Source: Spirochaetaceae bacterium
GTDB lineage: Bacteria; Spirochaetota; Spirochaetia; DSM-27196; Alkalispirochaetaceae
Length of the DNA stretch: 34,772 bases
Direction: 5' to 3'
Assembly: GCA_007695175.1 (NCBI GenBank)
Contig: REEH01000145.1
Coordinates: forward strand, 1-34,772
Part shown: piece after piece, positions 14,095 to 34,748 of the stretch
How positions within the stretch are numbered: the stretch's first letter is position 1
Layout of the letters: every line of letters starts with the position of its first letter
The notes under the pieces: generated by a model
Database searches by the model: none
What the model saw: the letters and a program-made list of their open reading frames with translations, nothing else
Told to the model about the DNA's origin: nothing
Made by a program: the position numbers and the translations under genes

Positions 14095-14263
14095 CCGCCG
14101 CTCCGGTCCGTTGCCGCGAGCAGCTCCTGGAGCCGGGCAATAGTCGCCCGTCCTGTCGCGAGACAGGCCTGATGGTCGAAGCCATTGCACATAGTGTAAC
14201 CGGAAATGGCGTATGTACAACCTGGTGGGAAATGGCTACGCTAAGAGCAGGGGGCCTTCCGGT
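14095..14263. other. Intergenic region before the MNT/HEPN pair
   Basis: These 169 bp carry no supported gene. A TTGCAC near 14183 might be a -35 box but no matching -10 is convincing. An AGGGGG run at 14249-14254 is the ribosome site of the next gene. Confidence 0.4.
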
Positions 14264-14587
14264 ATGTATCAACACGCACGGAACGTGCTTGCGCAGATAA
14301 GCGAATCTCTCAGAGAGGAGTTTCCGGCGGAGATCGTGACAATCAGAGCCTTTGGATCGCGAGTGCGAGGGGATCACTCGGGCGGTTCGGATTTTGACGT
14401 GCTGGTGGTCGTCCGGAAGAGGATGATCCCCCTGGAAGAACGTATCATCGATCGCTTCGTCGAATACGAAATGTCGAGCGGCATCTCCTTTGAGCCTGTC
14501 ATCAAATCGTCCGAAAGCTTTGAACAGGAAAAACGACATGGTACGCTCTTTTACGAAAACGTAATGAACGAAGGAATACCAGTATGA
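14264..14587 (+). CDS. Minimal nucleotidyltransferase (MNT) domain protein, probable antitoxin
   Basis: A 107-residue protein of the DNA polymerase beta-like minimal nucleotidyltransferase family. The signature GSRVRGDHSGGSDFDVLVVV (from residue 31) gives the GS loop and the two metal-binding Asp residues of SDFD. In MNT/HEPN pairs this protein neutralises the HEPN partner, in studied cases by transferring AMP groups to it. ATG 14264 is preferred over an in-frame ATG at 14213 because AGGGGG precedes it by 9 bp and family similarity starts there. It overlaps the HEPN gene by 4 bp (ATGA), the usual arrangement for the pair. Confidence 0.8.
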   Translation: MYQHARNVLAQISESLREEFPAEIVTIRAFGSRVRGDHSGGSDFDVLVVVRKRMIPLEERIIDRFVEYEMSSGISFEPVIKSSESFEQEKRHGTLFYENVMNEGIPV

Positions 14588-15003
14588 AACTGAGCCGACA
14601 GGACAAGGAGGAACTCAGCAGGATCAGGTTTGAGAAGGCCCGTGAGTTTCTTCGTGATGCCCAGGCAAACGTGGAGGAATCACGCTTCAGAACCGGTGTC
14701 AATCGTGCGTATTACGCGGCGCTGCATGCTATCCGGAGTCTGCTCGTGCTGGAAGGACTCGACTCGGAGACACACAGTGGCGCGATTACGGTGCTCAGCC
14801 TTCATTTCGTGAAACCGGGCTTACTCCCCGCGGAAGCAGTGAAAACAACAAAGCTCCTTCTATCCCGCCGCACCGACGTTGATTACGGCGATTTTGATTC
14901 CATCACGGAGGAAGAGGCCCGGGATTCGCTGGTCAGGGCGGAAGCGCTCCTGGATCAGATCGGAGCCGTTCGCGACACGATTACCGGCGGATCAGGTTCA
15001 TAA
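14584..15003 (+). CDS. HEPN-domain protein, probable toxin partner of the MNT
   Basis: This 139-residue all-helical protein has the HEPN core KAREFLRDAQANVEESRF and NRAYYAALHAIRSLL. Arg41 and His48 form an R-x6-H motif; HEPN ribonucleases use R-x4-6-H to cut RNA. The later RRTDVDYGDFDSITEEEA segment is typical of the UPF0332-type HEPN group. With the overlapping upstream MNT gene it forms a putative toxin-antitoxin module. The HepT signature RX4HXY is not matched exactly, so the AMPylation mechanism known from HepT/MntA cannot be assumed. The module sits in an accessory patch with a second, damaged toxin-antitoxin locus. Confidence 0.75.
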   Translation: MKLSRQDKEELSRIRFEKAREFLRDAQANVEESRFRTGVNRAYYAALHAIRSLLVLEGLDSETHSGAITVLSLHFVKPGLLPAEAVKTTKLLLSRRTDVDYGDFDSITEEEARDSLVRAEALLDQIGAVRDTITGGSGS

Positions 15004-15043: not shown

Positions 15044-15394
15044 CTATTCCCGGGTGGCGGCCACCATGAGCACTGTCTCTGCAGGTACGGCGCGCCGTAC
15101 TGCCCCCATATCAACCATCCAGTCTATCTCGAGAATTCTTGCCCCTGTCCGCCCCATGTCCGCCGCGATATGGGTGGTGTCGCCGCAGATGTGCAGGCTC
15201 CAGGGGATGCCGTACTCCTGTACCTGCTGAGCGAGGGTGACCTCATGCTCCCAGACAAACTGACGGTACATATCGGGACTGATCAGGTTGGGCCCCCCGT
15301 AGGAATCACCAATGCTCGTGGCGTGCGCCCCCGCGTCCTTCTGTGGCATCGCCATGCATCGTTCCAGTCCTGTCATTTCTTTCATAGTGCGTTG
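15044..15394 (-). pseudogene. Remnant of a UROD-family (MtaA-like) methyltransferase gene
   Basis: The minus strand encodes about 112 residues matching the middle of the uroporphyrinogen decarboxylase/methylcobamide methyltransferase family: IGDSYGGPNLISPDMYRQF, then EYGIPWSLHICGDTTHIAAD, then TGARILEIDWMVDMGAVRR. The HIC of LHICGD is the zinc-ligand pair of MtaA-type proteins. The N-terminal barrel half and the C-terminal GN-D-P and ENI segments are missing. The frame ends at a stop at 15044, just where a glycine-asparagine motif would be expected, and upstream codons show no similarity and run into the antitoxin promoter. It is a truncated, inactive relic. Confidence 0.75.
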
Positions 15395-15429
15395 AGTACA
15401 GGACGGGTGCCGGGAGCATTCAGGACTGA

Positions 15430-15458
15430 TTGTCCTCACCAGGCGTGGGGTGTAGTAT
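15430..15458 (+). promoter_or_regulatory. Probable promoter of the antitoxin gene
   Basis: TTGTCC (15430-15435) lies 17 bp before TAGTAT (15453-15458). The -10 region itself is a perfect 10 bp palindrome, TAGTATACTA (15453-15462). Confidence 0.45.
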
Positions 15459-15466
15459 ACTATATG

Positions 15467-15484
15467 CAGACCAGATCTGGTCTG
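15467..15484. promoter_or_regulatory. Perfect 18 bp palindrome, likely antitoxin operator
   Basis: CAGACCAGATCTGGTCTG is perfectly symmetric and begins 8 bp after the -10 box of the antitoxin promoter, about 32 bp before the ATG. Phd-type antitoxins bind palindromes at this location to repress their own operon, so this is the expected autoregulatory site. Confidence 0.6.
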
Positions 15485-15515
15485 GTTTACACCTTGCCGT
15501 GGGGGAGGAAAGCCT

Positions 15516-15755
15516 ATGGTCATAAACACGATTACGGAAGCTAAAGCCCAATTGTCGGCTCTCGTGGATCGTGCCGCACAGGGTGAAGAGATTATTATCA
15601 GCAAAGCGGGAAAAGCCGTTGCCGTACTCGTCCCCTATCCCCGGGCAGTTCACGCTCGGAAACCGGGCCGGCTCCGGGGTCGCATAAGGATAGCTGACGA
15701 TTTTGACACTCTACCGGAGGATATTGCGGAAGCTTTCGGGGCATCGCAGGAATGA
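15516..15755 (+). CDS. Phd/YefM-family antitoxin
   Basis: This 79-residue protein is a full-length type II antitoxin: ITEAKAQLSALVDRAAQGEE for DNA binding and dimerisation, IIISKAGKAVAVLVPY completing the Phd fold, and the C-terminal toxin-binding tail GRLRGRIRIADDFDTLPED typical of antitoxins paired with VapC PIN toxins. Its stop overlaps an ATG (ATGA at 15752-15755), where the toxin gene normally starts. The toxin that follows is truncated, so the antitoxin may now be an orphan that can still bind its operator or neutralise a related toxin elsewhere. Confidence 0.88.
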   Translation: MVINTITEAKAQLSALVDRAAQGEEIIISKAGKAVAVLVPYPRAVHARKPGRLRGRIRIADDFDTLPEDIAEAFGASQE

Positions 15756-15963
15756 AGAGGATTGGCTCGAAGCCCTGCGCGCCGACGGTGTACAGCAGAT
15801 CCCGATTCAGTGGCACCACGCAGAGCGCGTCCGTGCCTTGCCGGATATCCACCGCGATCCCTTTGATCGCATCCTGATCACCCAGGCTATCGAGGAACAC
15901 CTCGTCCTGGTGACGGCAGATGAAACGATTCAAAAATACCCTGTACAATGCCTGGCCAACTGA
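15752..15963 (+). pseudogene. Truncated VapC-like PIN-domain toxin, N-terminal half missing
   Basis: Read in the frame of codon 15751, the sequence gives EEDWLEALRADGVQQIPIQW, then HHAERVRALPDIHRDPFDRI and LITQAIEEHLVLVTADETIQ, the C-terminal half of a VapC PIN toxin including the HRDPFDR and TAD motifs. The expected first 55-60 residues, with the DTH active-site Asp and the conserved Glu, are absent. The ATG overlapping the antitoxin stop (15752) is in another frame and gives an unrelated 53-codon peptide. An out-of-frame internal deletion just after the toxin start codon explains this. The product should not be an active ribonuclease. Confidence 0.75.
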
Positions 15964-16020
15964 GATCATGTGCCGCCGGGCACGGGGCGCGCCGTGATTT
16001 CGTGGCTTCCTCTTCCGTGT

Positions 16021-25131: not shown

Positions 25132-25159
25132 GTTGCCGGTACACGGTTGCCGGTGCGTG
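25132..25159 (+). repeat. Imperfect 14 bp direct repeat before the BCCT gene
   Basis: GTTGCCGGT occurs at 25132-25140 and again at 25146-25154, giving two 14 bp units (GTTGCCGGTACACG and GTTGCCGGTGCGTG) in the leader of the transporter gene. Confidence 0.6.
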
Positions 25160-25183
25160 GCCTCGGTCATTAGTTTGAAGCGT

Positions 25184-26797
25184 ATGCAGACAAACAAGCG
25201 CAATTTTACCGGCCTGGGGCTGAACATGAATCCCTTTGTGTCGGTCGCGAGCGGCCTGTTCATTCTTCTCTTCTCCCTTTCCGCTCTCTTCCGGCTGGAC
25301 CAGGTGAGTGCGCTCCTGGAGAATCTCAACACGGCCGTGATCGGCACCTTTGACTGGGTGTTTATCCTGAGCAGCAACGTTTTTATTCTGGTCTGCATCG
25401 CTCTGGCGGTGTCCCGCCTGGGCCGGGTCAGAATCGGCGGCGTCGGGAGCCGGCCGGAGTTCACGAACTTCGCGTGGTACTCAATGCTTATCTCCGCCGG
25501 CATGGGTATCGGACTGATGTTCTGGGCCGTGGGAGAACCGCTCACCCACCACGTCGTGAAGCCGCCCGTCTTCGGCGGATCGGATTCGGCGGTGACCGCC
25601 ATGGCGACCACCTTTCTGCACTGGGGACTTCATCCATGGGGCACCTACGCACTGGTGGCGCTCGCTCTGGCGTACTTCGCCTACAACAGGAAGCTGCCCC
25701 TGTCCTTCCGGTCTCTCTTTTATCCCTTTTTTGGAGATCGTATACACGGTGTGCTCGGTGACGTGGTGGATACCTTTGCCGTGCTGGCCACGATGTTTGG
25801 CCTCGCCACTTCCCTGGGGTTGGGGACGCTGCAAATCAACAGCGGACTCGATTACATGTTCGGCACGGGGACAAACGTCGGTATTCAGGTCGGGATTATC
25901 GGGGGGGTGACGCTCCTTGCCCTCGTCTCGGTAATGGCGGGTATCCACAAAGGGGTGCGATTCCTCTCGGAAATCAATATCAAGCTTTCCCTGCTCTTTA
26001 TGCTGCTGGTATTTCTCCTCGGCCCGACGCTGTACATCCTGCGGCTCTTTCTGCAGTCGGTGGGTGCATATTTCGGTGGGCTGGTGGAAGAGGCGTTCTT
26101 TCTGGGCGGCGGAAACGGCTCATGGCAGGGCGACTGGACGATCTTTTATCTTGCCTGGTGGATCTCGTGGTCGCCCTTCGTGGGGATGTTTATCGCCCGG
26201 ATCTCCCGGGGACGGACGATACGCGAGTTTATCGTGGGAGTGCTGCTGGTACCCTCCCTGGTCTCTTTCTTCTGGCTCTCCGTATTTGGCGGTACCGCGA
26301 TAGAGATTGACGGTCTGTCCGGAGGAGCGCTTTTTGAGACGGTACAGAACAACTACCCGATCGCGCTCTTTGAGATGGTCGATCTGCTCCCGATACCGTT
26401 CCTGCCGGGGCTGGGCCGTATGGGCCTCTTTGTCGTGATCACCGCTCTGGTAATGTCCTATTTTATAACATCCTCAGACTCGGGATCCCTGGTGGTGGAC
26501 AAGCTGACATCCGGAGGTATCATCAACTCGCCACGACACCAGCGTGCGTTCTGGGCGGTGCTGGAAGGACTGCTTGCCGCCACACTCCTGGTGATCGGCG
26601 GAGAAAGAGCGCTCTTTGCGCTGCAGACCGCGGTGATCACCGCGGGACTGCCCCTGGCGGTGATGCTCGTTGTGGTCTCGATTGCGCTGGTAAAGGATAT
26701 CGCCCAGACTCATTCCGTGCAGGACAGGATACGACGGAAGAAGCGCTTTGTAACGCTCCTTTCCGAGTTGGAGGAGCCGGAGAGCGGAGGAGATTGA
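25184..26797 (+). CDS. BCCT-family transporter (betaine/carnitine/choline type)
   Basis: This 537-residue membrane protein has about 12 hydrophobic segments and the BCCT signatures: SAGMGIGLMFWAVGEPL in the glycine-rich third helix and IFYLAWWISWSPFVGMFIAR, then ISRGRTIREF, the Trp-rich eighth helix with its loop. BCCT carriers import quaternary ammonium compounds such as glycine betaine, choline or carnitine, driven by sodium or protons or by exchange. The charged C-terminal tail (QDRIRRKKRFVTLLSELEEP) is short. ATG 25184 is chosen because similarity begins there; the frame back to a TTG at 25133 crosses the direct repeat. The import of methylated amines would suit the methyl-metabolism theme, but substrate choice is not proved. 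Confidence 0.9.
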   Translation: MQTNKRNFTGLGLNMNPFVSVASGLFILLFSLSALFRLDQVSALLENLNTAVIGTFDWVFILSSNVFILVCIALAVSRLGRVRIGGVGSRPEFTNFAWYSMLISAGMGIGLMFWAVGEPLTHHVVKPPVFGGSDSAVTAMATTFLHWGLHPWGTYALVALALAYFAYNRKLPLSFRSLFYPFFGDRIHGVLGDVVDTFAVLATMFGLATSLGLGTLQINSGLDYMFGTGTNVGIQVGIIGGVTLLALVSVMAGIHKGVRFLSEINIKLSLLFMLLVFLLGPTLYILRLFLQSVGAYFGGLVEEAFFLGGGNGSWQGDWTIFYLAWWISWSPFVGMFIARISRGRTIREFIVGVLLVPSLVSFFWLSVFGGTAIEIDGLSGGALFETVQNNYPIALFEMVDLLPIPFLPGLGRMGLFVVITALVMSYFITSSDSGSLVVDKLTSGGIINSPRHQRAFWAVLEGLLAATLLVIGGERALFALQTAVITAGLPLAVMLVVVSIALVKDIAQTHSVQDRIRRKKRFVTLLSELEEPESGGD

Positions 26798-26848
26798 GTC
26801 AACAGGAGTATCGGTGCGCCCCCGCTGCCAACCTCCCCCATGCGGGCC

Positions 26849-27262
26849 CTAGGTGAGGAGGAAGCGGGAAAACCAGCGTGAGAGACCGTGGCCAAAGTGC
26901 GTAACGAAACTGCGCGCCACCGTCTGAGGATCAACGTCCGGATTCTCCTCCTTGAGAAAGTACCAGTGATCGGAAACGGCGAGGAAGAGATCCCCCAGAT
27001 TCTGGTTGGGGAAGGCGCTCCGAAACTCCCAGCCCCCGACGACGCGCTTCAGGGGAATCATCACGTTCTCGTACCAGGAAAAAACCGCTTCCTGCCACGT
27101 GATCTCCCGCCCGAGTTGCTCGGACAACCAGTATTTGTGCTTGTCCACGTGTTCCGCAAGCATCTTCCATCCCTCCTCGGGACGGGAAAAAGCGACGCCC
27201 TCCCGGGTAAACATCGTGGACAGAACTGTCGCTGTATCTGTTTGTTTCTGTGTGGAAACCAT
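26849..27262 (-). CDS. Small alpha-helical protein of unknown function
   Basis: A 137-residue soluble protein that I do not recognise with confidence. It contains EHVDKHKYWLSEQLGREITW, followed by EAVFSWYENVMIPLKRVV, vaguely like a helical segment of DUF4032-type proteins. A second half (FPNQNLGDLFLAVSDHWYFL, then a C-terminal FVTHFGHGLSRWFSRFLLT) is rich in aromatic residues and His. It has no signal peptide or membrane helix. ATG 27262 has an AAGGAG-like ribosome site 8 nt upstream, so the longer open frame to 27463 is not used. It is transcribed away from the UROD-thioredoxin gene and may share its control region. Confidence 0.65.
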   Translation of the reverse strand: MVSTQKQTDTATVLSTMFTREGVAFSRPEEGWKMLAEHVDKHKYWLSEQLGREITWQEAVFSWYENVMIPLKRVVGGWEFRSAFPNQNLGDLFLAVSDHWYFLKEENPDVDPQTVARSFVTHFGHGLSRWFSRFLLT

Positions 27263-27495
27263 ATTTTTGCTCCTTTTTTGTATTGAGCCACCGGCAGGTG
27301 ACCCTTCTCCGTGGAAGATAACGATCCCGGACAAAAAAGTAAAACTTTTTCTTGACAGATCCGCATTTATACCCTTATCCGTTCGTTCGGGAGCAATATC
27401 GGCGATTCGATAATTTTTTACATAAATGCGCAAGACCGTTATAGCGACGCAATCCCCCTTCATTCTATCGTCCTCACCGTATGGAGGACCTTACA
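27263..27495. promoter_or_regulatory. Divergent control region upstream of the UROD-thioredoxin operon
   Basis: These 233 bp carry no gene. An inverted repeat, AAAAAGT (27334-27340) and ACTTTTT (27344-27350), is followed directly by TTGACA (27352-27357) on the plus strand. Plus-strand -10 candidates are TATCCG (18 bp after TTGACA) and GATAAT (27409-27414). On the minus strand TATAAA (27371-27366) could serve the small divergent gene. The GGAGG ribosome site of the UROD gene is at 27483-27487. Confidence 0.4.
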
Positions 27496-29127
27496 ATGAC
27501 AGGAAAAGAACGGATTCAGCACGCTTTTGCCGGGCAGAAGGGTGATCGTGTCCCCTGGGTACCCTTTGTGGGGTGTCACGCGGGGATGCTTATAGGTGAG
27601 GATGCGGAAAGCTACCTCAAATCGGCGGATCTGGTGGAAGCAGGTGTCGCGAAAGCGGTGGAACTGTACCGTCCCGACGGTATTCCGGTAATGTTCGATC
27701 TGCAGATTGAGGCGGAGGCGCTCGGGTGCGGGCTGGCCTGGGCCAAAGAAAACCCGCCCGCGGTCATGCGCCATCCCCTGGGAAACGGAACCGCCCTGAA
27801 GGACCTGCAGGTGCCGGGCCCGGAGGCTGGTCGGATCGGGATCGCGCTGGAGGCGACGCGACGCATTCGCCGGAATCATCCGGACCTGGCAGTATACGGA
27901 CTGATTACGGGGCCCTTTACGCTGGCCCTGCATCTGCTCGGTACGGATATCTTCATGAAGATGTTTGATTCACCCCACGAAGTACACCAGCTTCTGGAAT
28001 TCTGCCGCGACGTGGGAACAGCCATGAGCTCCTACTACATCGAGGCGGGTTGCGACGTCGTAGCCCTGGTGGATCCCATGACGAGCCAGATCGGACCGGA
28101 GCAGTTCGAACAGTTCGTCACGCCCTACGTGAAGGATATCTTCAGCACGATCGCCGCGGAGGGCGCCCTGAGCTCCTTCTTTGTCTGTGGACACGCCCAG
28201 CAGAACATACCTGTCATGGCGCGTTCCGGGTGCGGTAATATCTCCATCGACGAGAACATCCCCCTGGAGTACGTGCGCGAAGAGTGCAGGCGTCGCAACA
28301 TCAGCTTTGGCGGCAACCTGCAGCTCACCAGTGTACTGCTGCTCGGCAAGCCCCTGGACGCGCAGAAGAACGCCCTGGCCTGCCTCGACGTGGCCGGTGA
28401 AGAGGGCTTCATCCTTGCCCCGGGGTGCGACTTACCCTACTCCACGCCACCGGAGAATCTCCAGGCCGTGGCGGATATCGTACACGATCCCTACAAACGT
28501 GACGTGGTCCGGCAAATGGCAACAGAGACTGTGGACGAGGATCGCCTGGACCTGGTGGAGTACGGCCAGGCGGACAAGGTGGTGGTGGATATCGTCACCC
28601 TGGACTCCGAGGCGTGCGCACCCTGTCAGTACATGGTGGACGCGGTGAAACGGGTGGCGCCGGAGTTTGAGGGCATCGTGATCTGGCGGGAACACAAGAT
28701 CAAGTACCGGGAGTCTCTGGTGTTCATGACCTCCCTGATGGTGCGCAACGTACCCACGATTTGCATCGACGGGGAAATCGTTTTCGTATCCCGAATCCCG
28801 CCCCGGGACGAACTGATCGCGGCGATCCAGAAGCGGATCAACGAGAAGTTCCGCATCCGTATCCAGAGCCGCCGGGCGACGCTCTTTCTCATGGGAGAGG
28901 AAGACGACCGGATGGCGGCACTGCGGGCAAACGTTGAGCAGGCCATGCGCGAGCTCGGTGCATCCGACGTGGGTGTCGAGCACGTGCAGGACGAGGAGGA
29001 GATCGCCCGGTTCGGCATTGCTCCGAGTCAGACCCCGGCGGTGGTCATGTCCCGCTACCAGGTCAAGTCACTCCATCGCGTACCGGAAACGGTGGTTATC
29101 AAGGAATGGCTGAAGGATCTGGGGTGA
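27496..29127 (+). CDS. UROD-family protein fused to two thioredoxin-like domains
   Basis: This 543-residue protein has a UROD/methylcobamide methyltransferase barrel in residues 1-335 (GKERIQHAFAGQKGDRVPW, LITGPFTLALHLLG, then APGCDLPYSTPPENLQAV). The second zinc Cys of MtaA-type enzymes is present in APGCDLP (Cys311), but the first HxC is FVCG, with Phe for His. Residues 360-448 form a thioredoxin domain with CAPC (Cys374/377) and the cis-Pro block NVPTICIDG. Residues 458-543 form a second thioredoxin-like domain with the cis-Pro SQTPAVV but no cysteines. ATG 27496 follows GGAGG by 8 bp; ATG 27481 lies upstream of that site. The stop overlaps the CobW gene by 1 bp. Function is inferred as redox-coupled methyl transfer. 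Confidence 0.85.
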   Translation: MTGKERIQHAFAGQKGDRVPWVPFVGCHAGMLIGEDAESYLKSADLVEAGVAKAVELYRPDGIPVMFDLQIEAEALGCGLAWAKENPPAVMRHPLGNGTALKDLQVPGPEAGRIGIALEATRRIRRNHPDLAVYGLITGPFTLALHLLGTDIFMKMFDSPHEVHQLLEFCRDVGTAMSSYYIEAGCDVVALVDPMTSQIGPEQFEQFVTPYVKDIFSTIAAEGALSSFFVCGHAQQNIPVMARSGCGNISIDENIPLEYVREECRRRNISFGGNLQLTSVLLLGKPLDAQKNALACLDVAGEEGFILAPGCDLPYSTPPENLQAVADIVHDPYKRDVVRQMATETVDEDRLDLVEYGQADKVVVDIVTLDSEACAPCQYMVDAVKRVAPEFEGIVIWREHKIKYRESLVFMTSLMVRNVPTICIDGEIVFVSRIPPRDELIAAIQKRINEKFRIRIQSRRATLFLMGEEDDRMAALRANVEQAMRELGASDVGVEHVQDEEEIARFGIAPSQTPAVVMSRYQVKSLHRVPETVVIKEWLKDLG

Positions 29128-30119
29128 TGACCCGGACCGACTCCGTCGACGTCTGGATCCTCGGGGGCTACCTGGGAGCGGGCAAAACGACGACTCTCAA
29201 CGCGCTGCTTCGGTCTCCCGGGATGGAGGATCTCAATCCGGCCCTCATAATCAACGAGTTTGGCCGCATCGGCGTGGACGGAGCGCTGGTGGAGCAGCGG
29301 CATCTGGCGCGATACGAGATCAACAAGGGAAGCCTCTTCTGCGCGTGCACCCGCACGGACTTCCTGCGTGCCCTGGAGGACGTTGCCGATGCCGCGTCGC
29401 ACGGGGCGCTCCTTATCGAGGCCACGGGAATCGCAGAGCCCGTGGATATCGAAGATCTGCTGGTGCGTGGATCCCGGCCGGGGCGCTTCCGGTTGCGCGG
29501 CAATATCTGCGTCGTGGACGCCTCGGGATTCACGCAGGTGGCGGCCTTTCTCAAACCGGCGGTGGAGCAGGTCCGCTGGGCCGATGCGCTGGTTATCAAC
29601 AAGTGCGACCTGGTGGATGCCCACCAACTGGCGGTGCTGCGCCGTGTACTGAGGGGAATCAACGGGAGGGCCCTGGTCAGGGAGACCACCCACGGCCGGA
29701 TCTCGATCGAATCGCTGCTGGAGGGCGGGGGCGCCGGGCCGGGCGGGCACACCGCACGGGACGGACACAGCACGCCAAGCGGGCGCGCCCGGACACCGGC
29801 CGTCGTCGCATCCTACCCCAGCGCCGCCCCACCGGACATCTTCGCGATCTCCTTTACATCCGATGCGGAAATCGAGGAAAACCGGTTTTCGGAAGTCCTG
29901 CGCGAGCTCGGCGATAACCTCCTGCGTCTCAAAGGAAACGTGGCGTTTGCCGGCAACCCGGCCTACCTTGAAGTGGTATGCGGCAGGGAAACGCGAAGGG
30001 AGCCGGAACAGAACCTGAGCGACCAGTACGGGATGCCCACGGTATTCACGGTAATCGCCTGGAACACCGATCCCTCCAGGGTTCGCTCCGCCTTTGCCCG
30101 GTGCGATTGTATCGGTTGA
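29127..30119 (+). CDS. CobW/P47K-family GTP-binding metallochaperone
   Basis: This 330-residue GTPase has the Walker A motif GGYLGAGKTT (residues 13-22), INEFG, the metal-binding CxC in SLFCACTRTDF (Cys72 and Cys74), EATGIAEP, and the guanine motif NKCD near residue 158, followed by a CobW C-terminal domain. The family delivers metals, or cobalt to cobalamin, to client proteins using GTP. The usual CxCC has become CAC. A Gly/Pro/Ser/Thr-rich linker (about residues 200-230) joins the two domains. ATG 29127 overlaps the UROD-thioredoxin stop (TGATG), so the two are translationally coupled, and the fusion protein or its partner is the likeliest client. Confidence 0.88.
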   Translation: MTRTDSVDVWILGGYLGAGKTTTLNALLRSPGMEDLNPALIINEFGRIGVDGALVEQRHLARYEINKGSLFCACTRTDFLRALEDVADAASHGALLIEATGIAEPVDIEDLLVRGSRPGRFRLRGNICVVDASGFTQVAAFLKPAVEQVRWADALVINKCDLVDAHQLAVLRRVLRGINGRALVRETTHGRISIESLLEGGGAGPGGHTARDGHSTPSGRARTPAVVASYPSAAPPDIFAISFTSDAEIEENRFSEVLRELGDNLLRLKGNVAFAGNPAYLEVVCGRETRREPEQNLSDQYGMPTVFTVIAWNTDPSRVRSAFARCDCIG

Positions 30120-30161
30120 ATTCGCGAAGACCTGATTCTATCTTTACGCTTGGAGGTAACG

Positions 30162-31064
30162 ATGATCGAGTCAGCCCAGGCGTCCTTTTACGATGACACA
30201 CCAACTCAGCTCCGGTTCTACCTTAATCTGGCAACGCTTGAAGACCTGCCGCCCTGGACCAGAGCGCCGCAAGGAGACACGGAGGCTATCGCACGAGCCC
30301 TCGTAGCCGCCGGTTTTCACGGCGTACAGGCGGAGGATTGCCTGGCCTACACCAAACACGGACTCGGTTGCGCGACGCTGGGCCGTGCCAACACGGTTGA
30401 AGAAATCCGGGCACTTGTGTCCAAATGGGCCGCGACAGGGTACGAATGCGGCACACTGCACATCGGGTGGGGATTTGAAGAGGACCGGGAGGTGATGGCT
30501 CTGGGCCGCGCCGTGGTGGAAATATCCGGATCGACGGGTATACCGGTCTATATCGAAACGCACCGTGCGACAATCACTCAGGATCCCTGGCGCACGCTCA
30601 AGCTGGTGGAGCAGGTCCCGGAGGTACGCTTCAACGGAGACTTCAGCCACTGGTATACCGGTTCGGAGATGACCTACGGAGACATCAACCATAAAATGGA
30701 GCTGCTCGCTCCCGTTTTCGAACGGGTGCGGTTCATTCACGCCCGGGTGGGTAACAGCGGCGCCATGCAGGTCCCCCTGCACGATCCCAGTATGAGCGTC
30801 GCCATGGAGCACTACCGGGATATGTGGACCCGCTCAATGATGGGCTTTCTAGGCGAAGCGGATCCCGAGGACCGGCTCATTTTCTCCCCTGAGTTGTTGC
30901 GTTCCTCGATAAACTATGCCCGACGATTCCGCACCGCCGAGGGGGCCTGGGAGGAGGACTCCGACCGTTGGGCCGACTCCCTCGCTCTTACGCGTGAAGC
31001 GGTTGCATGTTTCAGGGAAGCGGAAAAGCGCATCGAATCCACCGGGACCGCTACGAAGCGGTAA
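30162..31064 (+). CDS. TIM-barrel sugar isomerase/epimerase (xylose isomerase-like)
   Basis: The 300-residue product belongs to the AP endonuclease 2/xylose isomerase-like barrel family: GFHGVQAEDC, GTLHIGWGFEED, then IPVYIETHRATITQDPWRTL, VRFNGDFSHWYTG and RFIHARVGN. The Glu in IETHRAT, Asp in NGDFSHW and His in FIHARVG are the usual metal-binding set. Members epimerise or isomerise sugars, sugar phosphates or inosose. ATG 30162 with GGAGG (30152-30156) is preferred to a TTG at 30150. It lies 42 bp after the CobW gene and probably shares its transcript. The end overlaps the convergent aldose 1-epimerase gene by 14 bp. Confidence 0.82.
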   Translation: MIESAQASFYDDTPTQLRFYLNLATLEDLPPWTRAPQGDTEAIARALVAAGFHGVQAEDCLAYTKHGLGCATLGRANTVEEIRALVSKWAATGYECGTLHIGWGFEEDREVMALGRAVVEISGSTGIPVYIETHRATITQDPWRTLKLVEQVPEVRFNGDFSHWYTGSEMTYGDINHKMELLAPVFERVRFIHARVGNSGAMQVPLHDPSMSVAMEHYRDMWTRSMMGFLGEADPEDRLIFSPELLRSSINYARRFRTAEGAWEEDSDRWADSLALTREAVACFREAEKRIESTGTATKR

Positions 31065-32175
31065 CCCGGAACCGGTACACGATCGTCTGGGAGTAGAGCT
31101 CACCCGGCCGCAGGATAATATCGTCGATCTCCGGATGATTCGGCCCGTCCGGGTATCCCTGGCACTCCAGGCAGAATCCCGCCCGTCGAGCGAAGGGTGC
31201 CGTCAGTCCGTCACCACCGAAAAACTGCAGGCAGGAGGCGTCGGTGAAGGTATCCATCACGCGGCCGCTTGCGGGGTGCTCCGCCCGGGCAACGTGGCGA
31301 ATCGCTGCCTCCCGGGATACATCCCTGAGCAGGTAGTTATCCCCGTGTCGCTGGTGGAGCGCCGGTATCACCTCGCCCAGCAGCCGTGGTTTCCGCAGGT
31401 CCGCCGCCGTTCCTTCCACGGGCTCCACCCGTCCCAGGAGCGTCATCGTATCGTCGGTGGGAGTGTAGTGATCGGCGTACACCGCGAGACGGTGCGAGTC
31501 CACGTTCTGCTCTCCGCCGCCGGACAGGTTGAAGTGGGCGTGGCTCGTGGTGCTCAGCGGTGTCGGCGCGTCTGTGCGGGCTCGGGTCCTGATAATCAGA
31601 TCCACCGGCGCCGCGGACGCTGGTGCGGATGCCGGAGCCGGTGCGGTCACCTTTTCGGATGCGGGCACCGGCGCCGGGTCGTGCCCGGGGGGCAACCACG
31701 CGGCACTCCCCAGCCGGTATTCCACCTCCACATCGATCGAGCCGGGATAGCCCTCCTCCCCGGCGGGGCTGTGGTAGTGCATTGTAACGGAATCATCACT
31801 TTGCCCGGTGACGGTCCAGACGCGACGGTAGAAGCCGCCATTTCCTCCGTGCAGATGGTTTGGTGGATTGTTCCGCTCCAACCGGTACTCCCGCCCGTCC
31901 AGAACAAAGCGCCCCCCCGTGAGTCGGCCCGCGATCCGCCCCACGATGGCCCCCGAGTAGATCGTCCCCTGCACGTACTCGTCCAGCGTATCGTACCGCA
32001 GGATCACCGGACCGGGATGCCCCTCGCGATCAGGCACGCGCAGGTCAACCATTGCTGCGCCGTAGGGCATTACCGCGAGCGTCGCTCCGCTCCCCCCGCC
32101 ATCGGAGAGACGGATCAGCGGAATGGCCCCGTCCCCGGGGAGCACTCCAAAGGATTCGTTCGTCCGCTCTCTCAA
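31051..32175 (-). CDS. Aldose 1-epimerase (mutarotase) with an Ala/Pro-rich insertion
   Basis: The 374-residue protein has the galactose mutarotase motifs: GAIVGRIAGRLTGGRF, NNPPNHLHGGNGGFYRR, the catalytic His in TTSHAHFNLSG, DHYTPTDDTM, and the catalytic Glu in FCLECQGYPDGPNH. It interconverts alpha and beta anomers of hexoses. An insertion of about 25 residues (DPAPVPASEKVTAPAPASA, then PASAAP) breaks the fold between VEYRLGSA and VDLIIRT. The start is probably TTG 32175: it overlaps the preceding UROD stop by 4 bp (TTGA) and has GGGAG 8 bp upstream. A later GTG is possible. The upstream open frame to 32550 is a shadow of the UROD gene. It is the last gene of a three-gene minus-strand operon. 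Confidence 0.85.
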   Translation of the reverse strand: MRERTNESFGVLPGDGAIPLIRLSDGGGSGATLAVMPYGAAMVDLRVPDREGHPGPVILRYDTLDEYVQGTIYSGAIVGRIAGRLTGGRFVLDGREYRLERNNPPNHLHGGNGGFYRRVWTVTGQSDDSVTMHYHSPAGEEGYPGSIDVEVEYRLGSAAWLPPGHDPAPVPASEKVTAPAPASAPASAAPVDLIIRTRARTDAPTPLSTTSHAHFNLSGGGEQNVDSHRLAVYADHYTPTDDTMTLLGRVEPVEGTAADLRKPRLLGEVIPALHQRHGDNYLLRDVSREAAIRHVARAEHPASGRVMDTFTDASCLQFFGGDGLTAPFARRAGFCLECQGYPDGPNHPEIDDIILRPGELYSQTIVYRFRVTAS

Positions 32176-33422
32176 GCGTTGAACTCCCGGATTGCCTCTA
32201 CCATGGCAACCACGTTTTCGATCGGTGTCCTGGCCTGGATGTTGTGGATGCTGGAAGCCACGAAGCCACCGCCGGGAGAGAATATTTTCAGGTGCTTCAG
32301 CACCTCCGCCCGGACCTCCGCCGGCGTTCCGAAGGGCAGCGTCTTCTGCGTGTCCACGGCGGCTCCCCAGAAGACCATGTCCCGCCCGAACTCCCGTTTC
32401 AGCGAGACCGGATCCATCCCGCCGGCGTTCCACTGGATCGGGTTGAGAATATCGATACCTGCCTCGATGAAGTGGGGAATCAGGGACGTGATCGCTCCGT
32501 CGGTGTGTTTGTACACCTTCCAGCTCGTGTGACCGTGAATCCAGTCGCATACCTTCCGGTAGTACGGCTTGTAGAGTGATTCAAAGGTCTCGGGAGAACA
32601 GAAGGTGCTGGACTGCGTTCCGAAGTCCGTCCCGCAGATATACACCAGGCCCACCGCGTCGCCCACAACAGCGTGGATCCTCACCAGATTTTCCAGAGCG
32701 ATATCTATCTGCTTCTCGAATACCGCGTGGAGATAATCCTGCCGCGCAGCAGTCGAGATGTACCACTCCGTCACGTCCCGGATGCCTCGGGGATGCTCCA
32801 GGTTGAGGCCCGGCACCAGCGCGATATCGCCGAGGGCCGTGCCCCCGAAAAGCCCGAAGAGAAAGCGTGGGTTCTCCCTGTGCTGTTCAACCATTGAACC
32901 GAAGCGCTTTAGATCCTCATCGCTTATGGGACCGAACTCCTGCAGGTTATCCTCCGGATTCAGGTTGTCCTCGTCGATCTCATCCTGTCGGATAATGGCA
33001 TCAAAGAAGAAGGAGCTCGGCGGCATACGTCCACTGGGAGGTACACTCCTGTTTCCGTTGGGGTACAGCACGACATCTCCGTTCGGGAGCGTGTCGTGTT
33101 CAAACTTGCCCGGCACCAGCACATCCTGACCCCAGGGGGTCCGGAAGGGTTTCCAGTTCTCGATGTAGAAACCGAACATCGTGTGCGGGTTCCACAGAGG
33201 CTGTACATCGATGCCCATGGCGTCCTTGAGGTCATCGTCGATGTAACCGAGCATCTGGAACGGCTCGTGGACCTTTACAGGCCCCCTCTCCAGGCCGTAG
33301 TGCTCCCGAAGACCCTCCACGATACTGCAATGGATCCCACTGGTGGGACCACCGCCCAGATCGAGCGGAACGGGTCCCGGCCGGTGGTTGATGGCGGCGT
33401 TAACCTTTTCTTTTGAGGTCAT
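32172..33422 (-). CDS. UROD-like family protein, HTDG subfamily
   Basis: This 416-residue protein is a distant uroporphyrinogen decarboxylase relative: SKEKVNAAINHRPGPVPLDL at the start, then VYKHTDGAITSLIPHFIEAG, IDILNPIQWNAGGMDPVSLK, AAVDTQKTLPFGTPAEV, and SPGGGFVASSIHNIQARTPI, then ENVVAM. This subfamily has HTDG where MtaA enzymes have HxC, so the zinc site of methylcobamide methyltransferases is not present. These proteins occur widely in carbohydrate gene clusters of anaerobes and their reaction is not established. It is not expected to make coproporphyrinogen. ATG 33422 has AAGGAGT 7 nt upstream. It lies 12 bp after another UROD-like gene and overlaps the aldose epimerase gene. Confidence 0.8.
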   Translation of the reverse strand: MTSKEKVNAAINHRPGPVPLDLGGGPTSGIHCSIVEGLREHYGLERGPVKVHEPFQMLGYIDDDLKDAMGIDVQPLWNPHTMFGFYIENWKPFRTPWGQDVLVPGKFEHDTLPNGDVVLYPNGNRSVPPSGRMPPSSFFFDAIIRQDEIDEDNLNPEDNLQEFGPISDEDLKRFGSMVEQHRENPRFLFGLFGGTALGDIALVPGLNLEHPRGIRDVTEWYISTAARQDYLHAVFEKQIDIALENLVRIHAVVGDAVGLVYICGTDFGTQSSTFCSPETFESLYKPYYRKVCDWIHGHTSWKVYKHTDGAITSLIPHFIEAGIDILNPIQWNAGGMDPVSLKREFGRDMVFWGAAVDTQKTLPFGTPAEVRAEVLKHLKIFSPGGGFVASSIHNIQARTPIENVVAMVEAIREFNA

Positions 33423-33434
33423 GATCAGGACTCC

Positions 33435-34748
33435 TTACCTGGCGCGGTCTATCTCCTCCCGGGCAATCTCCACCCAGCGGGAGGCGTTTTCGGGGTTGCC
33501 CCCCAGGGTATGGTTGTCTTTCATCATCAGCTCGAGAAAGCTGTCCCGGGAGACGGAGAGCACTTCCCGCAGCTCGCGCCGTACCTCATCCTCGTCCATA
33601 GCGGCGAAGGCGAGCGGCGTCGGACTCGGCTTCACGGAGAAGATGTAGTCCCGGCCAAGCTGCTCCGCCATCAGCGGCCTGTCCGCCCAGGGGGAGCTGC
33701 TCACCCGTCGCAGGCGCGGAATCGTCTTTACGTGATCCCAGCGGCCGTGCAGCGGCTCGCAGCACCCGTAGCAGTTGAGGCCGAACCGCTCCAGCACGGA
33801 TTTCTGATAGGGCAGAATGAATTCCGCGAACATCTCCGGCGAGGTCCCTACCGTCTCCTGGCTCTCGCCGAATCCCCACATGTCGATCATCCGGACATGC
33901 TCCGGGTTGAAGCCCTCCGCCGGCAGCTGTTCCGTCCAGCCGAAACCGCCGGATCCCACGTAGGTCCCTTCCGTGTTGAGCGCCAGGAGACCCTCGCGCT
34001 CCAGGAATTCCATCTTGGCCAGAGTGCCATCCCGCAGAAAGGTCATGAGCCGGTGGACGCCCTCGGGGTTGTCGTACATGTCCAGCATGAAGTTACTCAG
34101 TCCCCGCAGCGTGATGAACTCCCAGGTCATTCCCAGCGTCCAGTACCACACTCCGCGCAGACGCACCGTAAGGATATCGCCAAACAGATCCTGCGCCAGC
34201 TCCAGTACCGCCCGCGTCTGCTCATGGTCCACGATGATCTCGGGATATTTGAGCCTGGGCAGGTCCCGTTCGTAATCCTGGATCGGCGCGTCCCACACGT
34301 AGGATCCGCCGTGGGCGGGGTCGCCGTGCATGTCCGCCACGAGCCCCCAACCCGTATCGTCATAATTATAGGGGACGTCAAAGAACGGTTCGATCACCTT
34401 GTCGTCCTTGAACTCCTCCGCCCAGTGAATCTGCTTGCGCAGGGCCATCTCCCACACGCGCAGGAGTGGATGTTCGCAGAGGATCTGCTTCTGCAGGATG
34501 ATCTCGTTCCACCCGTTCTCCGGATCGATGAAGACCAGCGGTGTGGTATCACGCAGATCGTTGTGCGCGGTCCAGAGGCGAGCCTTCTCCTCCATCTGGG
34601 GGCGTGCCGCGATCTCCGCCACGTGCCGTGCCAGTTCGCGCAGGAGGTCCCGCTCCCGGGGTGTTACGGAGAGCCGGCCCGATATTCCCCGGGTGGTACT
34701 CAACCCCGATGCTGTCTGGATCGTTGATGGGTCACGCTCGTTGCTCAT
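33435..34748 (-). CDS. UROD-like family protein, YGCCEPL subfamily
   Basis: The 437-residue protein is another remote uroporphyrinogen decarboxylase relative. The marker block is NCYGCCEPLHGRWDHVKTIP, followed by RRVSSSPWADRPLMAEQLG and DYIFSVKPSPTPLAF; the N-terminal half has DTTPLVFIDPENGWNEII and VPYNYDDTGWG. The double Cys in GCCEP sits at the place of the HxC zinc ligands of MtaA-type methyltransferases and may bind a metal. The reaction is not known; corrinoid- or sugar-linked methyl transfer is a guess from the superfamily. ATG 34748 has AAGGAGAG 5 nt upstream. It is the first gene of the minus-strand operon that continues with a second UROD-like gene and a mutarotase. Confidence 0.8.
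   Translation of the reverse strand: MSNERDPSTIQTASGLSTTRGISGRLSVTPRERDLLRELARHVAEIAARPQMEEKARLWTAHNDLRDTTPLVFIDPENGWNEIILQKQILCEHPLLRVWEMALRKQIHWAEEFKDDKVIEPFFDVPYNYDDTGWGLVADMHGDPAHGGSYVWDAPIQDYERDLPRLKYPEIIVDHEQTRAVLELAQDLFGDILTVRLRGVWYWTLGMTWEFITLRGLSNFMLDMYDNPEGVHRLMTFLRDGTLAKMEFLEREGLLALNTEGTYVGSGGFGWTEQLPAEGFNPEHVRMIDMWGFGESQETVGTSPEMFAEFILPYQKSVLERFGLNCYGCCEPLHGRWDHVKTIPRLRRVSSSPWADRPLMAEQLGRDYIFSVKPSPTPLAFAAMDEDEVRRELREVLSVSRDSFLELMMKDNHTLGGNPENASRWVEIAREEIDRAR

Follow-up and report, generated by a model that had tools for sequence, protein, structure and literature searches.

Our study identified a gene that joins a corrinoid-linked methyl-transfer enzyme to two thioredoxin-like domains in a 34 772-nucleotide stretch of contig REEH01000145.1 from a Spirochaetaceae bacterium (the window), where it is followed directly by a gene for a CobW-family GTPase. 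The fusion gene, here called UROD-Trx, is real, and the arrangement of methyltransferase, thioredoxin and CobW is conserved across many phyla, so that it appears to mark an unstudied kind of methyl-transfer system. Based upon domains, conservation, gene pairing and co-occurrence, all read from sequence, the best explanation as a whole is a corrinoid methyltransferase that depends on a metal, carries a dithiol reductase within itself and has a metallochaperone of its own. We assign this reading a probability of roughly 0.58; it and the four alternatives weighed below overlap in part, and their probabilities do not sum to one. The methyltransferase, thioredoxin and metallochaperone unit occurs in many phyla from largely anoxic habitats, as judged by record names, and would provide a candidate enzyme for anaerobic methyl metabolism, a COG0523 GTPase whose client protein is evident, and a natural setting in which to see how a UroD-type metal site works without histidine. 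A literature search, which left most subscription journals outside its reach, found no paper on this fusion.

The fusion gene and its homologues

The gene is a single uninterrupted frame of 543 aa at 27496–29127 (+, stop included). The ATG at 27496 appears a better start than the longest-ORF start at 27481, because a GGAGG Shine–Dalgarno motif (27483–27487) sits 8 bases upstream of it and the homologues begin MTGKE; residue numbers given here run from 27481, and subtracting 5 gives the numbering from ATG 27496. The encoded domains are, in order, a URO-D barrel resembling that of MtaA, a thioredoxin domain that has CAPC and a cis-proline, and a cysteine-free thioredoxin-like domain. The first-pass annotation had proposed such a fusion from the letters alone, and this was borne out by the intact frame, by Pfam and NCBIfam matches and by an AlphaFold2 model of the whole protein (pLDDT 90.5). 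The model contains a TIM barrel and two alpha/beta domains, of which the barrel matches MtaA and the tail matches thioredoxins, mainly through domain 2. The objection raised beforehand, that homologues might carry separate genes and the window a frameshift, was excluded because the homologues are fused alike; with the identical fusion in many independent genomes, a frameshift or chimera is ruled out. An Rfam scan of 26500–31500 returned no RNA element.

The same architecture and gene pair were sought in other genomes, as had been suggested, by a scan of species genomes that gave 80 loci, most of them with CobW. The approximately 80 homologues belong to Planctomycetota, Spirochaetota, Bacillota, Bacteroidota, Chloroflexota and others, and residue conservation was taken from 72 aligned sequences. 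A 548-aa form is found in Planctomycetota, many Lentisphaerota, SAR324, KSB1 and others, and a 450-aa form, which has a single thioredoxin domain, in Spirochaetota, Kiritimatiellota, Bacillota, Chloroflexota and some Bacteroidota. Every homologue that possesses the regions concerned keeps FVCG, both barrel cysteines and CAxC. Phylogenetic inference grouped the host copy with Phycisphaerae sequences and a related genome (G143), apart from the 450-aa forms of other members of its order, one of them from the same genus, and the host copy was probably gained by transfer. The GC content of the fusion gene equals that of the contig, which also carries an Hsp33 gene whose relatives span the order, with up to 55 % identity within the genus; these relatives agree with a genuine host contig, without proving it, and leave a residual chance of mis-binning.

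The barrel and its predicted metal site

The barrel (residues 8–336; 27502–28488) matched Pfam URO-D (PF01208) at 209 bits. Its top PDB profile match was 4ay7, and the modelled barrel aligned with MtaA (4ay7/4ay8) at Z ~43 (42.9 for 4ay8), compared to ~37 for UROD, so that by both profile and fold it is a UroD-type TIM barrel nearest MtaA. All curated subfamily scores fell below their cut-offs, namely TIGR01463 (168.3 of 235.4 bits), NF040654 (140.8 of 400), NF041608 (131.2 of 600) and the HemE equivalog TIGR01464 (75.4 of 302.95).

The loss of the histidine from the HxC motif had been noticed at the outset and taken to suggest altered metal chemistry, and the alignment extends this loss to the whole family: the motif reads FFVCG in the host, and the position of the MtaA zinc histidine is phenylalanine in all homologues covering it. 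Both barrel cysteines are retained, C236 (28186–28188) aligning with the cysteine of the MtaA HxC and C316 of PGCD (28426–28428) with its second zinc cysteine. These two residues are invariant in the 72 aligned sequences, as are C379, C382 and the cis-proline P425 of the thioredoxin domain. Because the histidine of the known zinc site is absent, metal binding is only presumed here; H33 (27577–27579), which is ~95 % conserved and aligns near the active site, is a candidate replacement ligand. Cysteine-rich zinc sites favour sulphur and selenium substrates (PMC10418091), and by analogy two cysteines without histidine may favour a soft, metal-bound substrate. The fusion thus shares with the coenzyme M methyltransferases MtaA, MtbA and MtsA the barrel of the UroD superfamily, two aligned zinc cysteines and a corrinoid protein partner, but differs in its phenylalanine for histidine, its thioredoxin domains, its sub-cut-off NCBIfam scores and its bacterial hosts here.

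Linkage to a corrinoid protein

A possible corrinoid link had been raised in the first-pass annotation, and genomic context now indicates that the UROD-Trx system is corrinoid-linked, as a corrinoid protein and a RamA activase are either adjacent or co-occurring. In spirochaete operons UROD-Trx is the sole methyltransferase, and its companions are RamA, PocR-AraC, a short corrinoid protein, CobW and a MetH-activation-like protein; in spirochaetes other than the host, the usual neighbours of the fusion are the short corrinoid protein and the RamA-type activase. In the host both elements of a three-component corrinoid system, the cognate corrinoid protein and RamA, are present on a separate contig (C41) together with PocR-AraC and DUF1638; the relative G143 has a corrinoid protein 90 % identical to that of the host, and ORFs that match those of C41 in order and length. 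A transposase-like gene, recognized by eye, lies immediately 5' of the corrinoid protein operon on this host contig (L097, 17–1417).

Among 148 genomes of the host's class, an orthologue of the corrinoid protein (≥57 % identity, a line chosen after the hit list was seen) was present in 29 of 31 with UROD-Trx and 16 of 117 without (Fisher P=4e-17, with related genomes treated as independent and no correction for phylogeny). The two genes were adjacent (<1 kb) in 16 of the 17 class genomes that have both on one contig, and 16 class genomes carry the corrinoid protein without UROD-Trx. Of 50 UROD-Trx genomes reached through the loci of the species-genome scan, mostly of other phyla, 48 encode a short corrinoid protein, as a rule only one. 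MttB also co-occurs (13/31 versus 12/117), a signal that is real, yet not specific. One suggestion for the thioredoxin pair, that it reduces the corrinoid, has become less likely, because the RamA-type activase that accompanies the system has its own ferredoxin domain.

The type 1 mlp clusters (Kountz and Balskus, PMC10418091) similarly combine a UroD-type methyltransferase, a corrinoid protein and a Ram activase, often without an H4folate methylase, and they are proposed to demethylate selenium compounds so that the selenium can enter selenoproteins. Such selenium salvage could also suit the soft two-cysteine site, corrinoid protein and RamA of the present system; however, SelB is absent from the host and was found in just 9 of the 31 UROD-Trx genomes of its class, which rejects a role in selenium alone. 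Furthermore, the mlp enzymes Mlp2 and Mlp3 retain His-Cys-Cys sites, and the main text of that paper names neither a thioredoxin fusion nor CobW. We regard selenium salvage as highly improbable.

The CobW partner

The ATG of the CobW-family (COG0523) gene (29127–30119, +) overlaps the TGA of the fusion (29125–29127) by one base, at 29127, just as had been described, and both of its domains scored over their cut-offs (PF02492, 116.6 bits; PF07683, 35.1 bits). In place of the usual CxCC metal motif of COG0523 it has FCAC (29337–29348), within a G-x-x-FCxC pattern that is shared by the paired homologues apart from the Chloroflexota-type CobW; a CxCC-type protein was seen at three Chloroflexota loci. 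The pairing is tight throughout the family. A CobW gene lies before or after the fusion at ~64 of 75 testable loci, of which 55 were scored by script and 9 by eye (overlapping, over-extended ORF), and in 43 of 51 automatically scored downstream cases it starts within 30 bp of the fusion stop; it was absent as a neighbour at eight testable loci. On a plasmid record of Subdoligranulum variabile (L136, 119–3498), UROD-Trx, a BioB-like radical SAM protein and an FCxC CobW are consecutive.

There is precedent in methanogens, where COG0523 genes cluster with the methanol methyltransferase genes mtaA, mtaB, mtaC and ramM (PMC2770081). That subfamily likewise places a CobW-type GTPase beside a zinc-dependent methyltransferase system, whereas the partner here is a UROD-thioredoxin fusion and the cysteine motif is FCxC.

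The thioredoxin domains

The first thioredoxin domain (residues ~366–452; 28576–28836) matched Pfam Thioredoxin_3 (PF13192) at residues 376–448 with 40.6 bits and PDB entries 1nho and 1fo5 by profile, and the tail folded alone gave Z ~9 to thioredoxins. With its CAPC motif (C379 and C382; 28615–28626) and the cis-proline of VPT (P425; 28753–28755), it has the fold, CxxC and cis-proline of the thioredoxin superfamily, as first described.

The second domain (residues ~465–547; 28873–29121) is a qualified case. The annotated proline (TPA) is present and the cysteines are absent, so the host copy has no active CxxC; the fold is assigned by sequence profile, alignment and model, because the list of fold matches for the tail was filled mainly by domain 2. 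The evidence for domain 3 consists of a stretch of NCBIfam redox_disulf_2 (MTH895/ArsE, TIGR00412) at residues 480–545, the beta-alpha order in the models and Foldseek matches of the tail to tandem thioredoxin proteins. Homologues L034, L035 and L039 keep CxAC or CxGC at the corresponding position, and domain 3 of the host therefore looks like a decayed redox domain. The profile matches of the two C-terminal domains are to MTH895/ArsE- and MJ0307-type thioredoxins, which differ in that the present domains are fused to a methyltransferase and the domain 3 cysteines are lost in this lineage.

It might be argued that the thioredoxin part is a mere maintenance reductase or docking module on an ordinary corrinoid methyltransferase, since domain 3 lacks cysteines in the planctomycete lineage and is missing from about half of the family. 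However, the first domain retains its CAxC and cis-proline without exception across phyla, residues that pure docking would not need, and we consider this explanation rather unlikely.

Proposed mechanism and direction of transfer

From these data we infer the metal, direction, substrate, thioredoxin role and flow to THF as follows. The fusion would belong to the MtaA/UroD superfamily and act as a methyltransferase that depends on a corrinoid protein. Its metal site would be formed by C236 and C316, with the usual histidine gone, and the methyl group would move between a small compound and the dedicated short corrinoid protein. A RamA-type activase would hold the corrinoid protein as Co(I), and the CobW partner would load the metal, which is most likely zinc. 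As a built-in dithiol, the fused thioredoxin may keep either the metal-binding cysteines or a thiol or selenol substrate or product reduced; help with metal loading and release of a thiol-bound methyl group, both suggested in the first-pass annotation, are conceivable alternatives. On balance we favour demethylation on the donor side, with a soft (S- or Se-) methyl compound as the substrate.

The methyl group could instead run the other way, from methyl-corrinoid proteins to a thiol, as in MtaA and MtbA with coenzyme M (the MT2 role), with the thioredoxin supplying or regenerating the thiol. The nearest solved relative, MtaA, is such an acceptor-side thiol methyltransferase, and the active site is uniform across phyla while the substrate genes are not fixed. 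In Acetobacterium fimetarium the fusion lies inside an mtmC-mtmB-pyl methylamine cluster with an ammonium transporter, and next to mtmC-mtmB-pylSBCD methanogens would use MtbA; this setting counts against the donor-side reading, and by analogy the fusion could have an acceptor-side role. However, A. fimetarium encodes many further proteins of the corrinoid and pterin-binding methyltransferase types, a donor-side methyltransferase is missing near most loci, and a methylated thioredoxin has no known onward route. We regard transfer to a thiol as rather unlikely, albeit deserving of some weight. The A. fimetarium locus (L081, 1274–12837) comprises a corrinoid protein, a TAG-containing mtmB (PF05369, 748 bits with TAG read through), tRNA-Pyl, pylSBCD, UROD-Trx, the ammonium transporter and CobW.

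A speculative variant, which we think improbable, makes the CAPC dithiol itself the chemical partner, either replacing coenzyme M as the methylated thiol or capturing the thiol or selenol released by demethylation. It would, just as doubtfully, place the transfer at the histidine-less two-cysteine metal site loaded by the dedicated FCxC CobW. If true, this would be a redox-coupled corrinoid methyl transfer, of which we know no description.

Possible fate of the methyl group and neighbouring genes

Under the preferred donor-side reading, the methyl group in the host could pass to THF and then to formate through an operon on contig C218, which encodes an MtgD-like pterin-binding methyltransferase, FolD, Fhs, a MetF-like protein and the beta and alpha subunits of ETF, together with a hydantoinase-like protein and a homocysteine methyltransferase. 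G143 has a similar THF operon on one 15-kb contig with the fusion, and in PVC genomes the corrinoid gene is near Fhs, FolD, MetF or PF02574 in some and near ETF and ETF-QO in others, which suggests that the methyl may be oxidized via THF to formate. A candidate cognate THF methyltransferase of MtgD-like type, present in the host and G143, shows no correlation with the fusion within the class (2/31 with UROD-Trx versus 9/117 without); a general coupling to THF was therefore dropped, and the outlet appears optional. Both genomes carry a hydantoinase/oxoprolinase-like protein within the THF/ETF operon (L139, 6454–8634; L138, 4786–6900).

The host's corrinoid, RamA, DUF1638, pterin-binding and homocysteine methyltransferase proteins recall the split MtgC/MtgD/MtgE modules with RamA and DUF1638 of marine bacteria (PMC12478193, PMC5764234). 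In those systems the donor module is MtgB, whereas UROD-Trx tracks the corrinoid protein and not the MtgD-like protein. The fusion might accordingly be a piece of a split methionine synthase, acting with the corrinoid protein, DUF1638, RamA and a homocysteine methyltransferase (PF02574) towards methionine: the accessory set (with PF00809 and PF02574) is that of Phaeobacter (PMC5764234) and Ruegeria (PMC12478193), and PF02574 genes lie close to UROD-Trx in Kiritimatiellales and are also present on the G143 contig. However, one host frame of 1245 aa has B12 and pterin matches of the MetH type and is presumably MetH itself, and the MtgD-like protein does not co-occur with the fusion, so we find this very unlikely.

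Neighbour Pfam counts around the fusion loci showed no enriched transporter or substrate family. A methylated-sugar substrate, considered on account of RhaT, an epimerase and sulfatases near some loci, was rejected on these counts.

The window holds further genes in its own right. A BCCT-type betaine/choline transporter gene (25157–26794, +) lies upstream of the fusion, with a possible, unproven link to methyl metabolism. Two URO-D-like genes of another subfamily lie near the fusion on the opposite strand (32175–33422 and 33438–34748, −), the second under the Pfam cut-off. At 15047–15969 (−), one of two neighbouring short ORFs contains a URO-D stretch (PF01208 positions 170–285), which suggests a URO-D gene that is broken or has suffered a frameshift. 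Finally, a nucleotidyltransferase and HEPN gene pair at 14213–15003 (+) has the usual arrangement of an MNT/HEPN toxin–antitoxin system.
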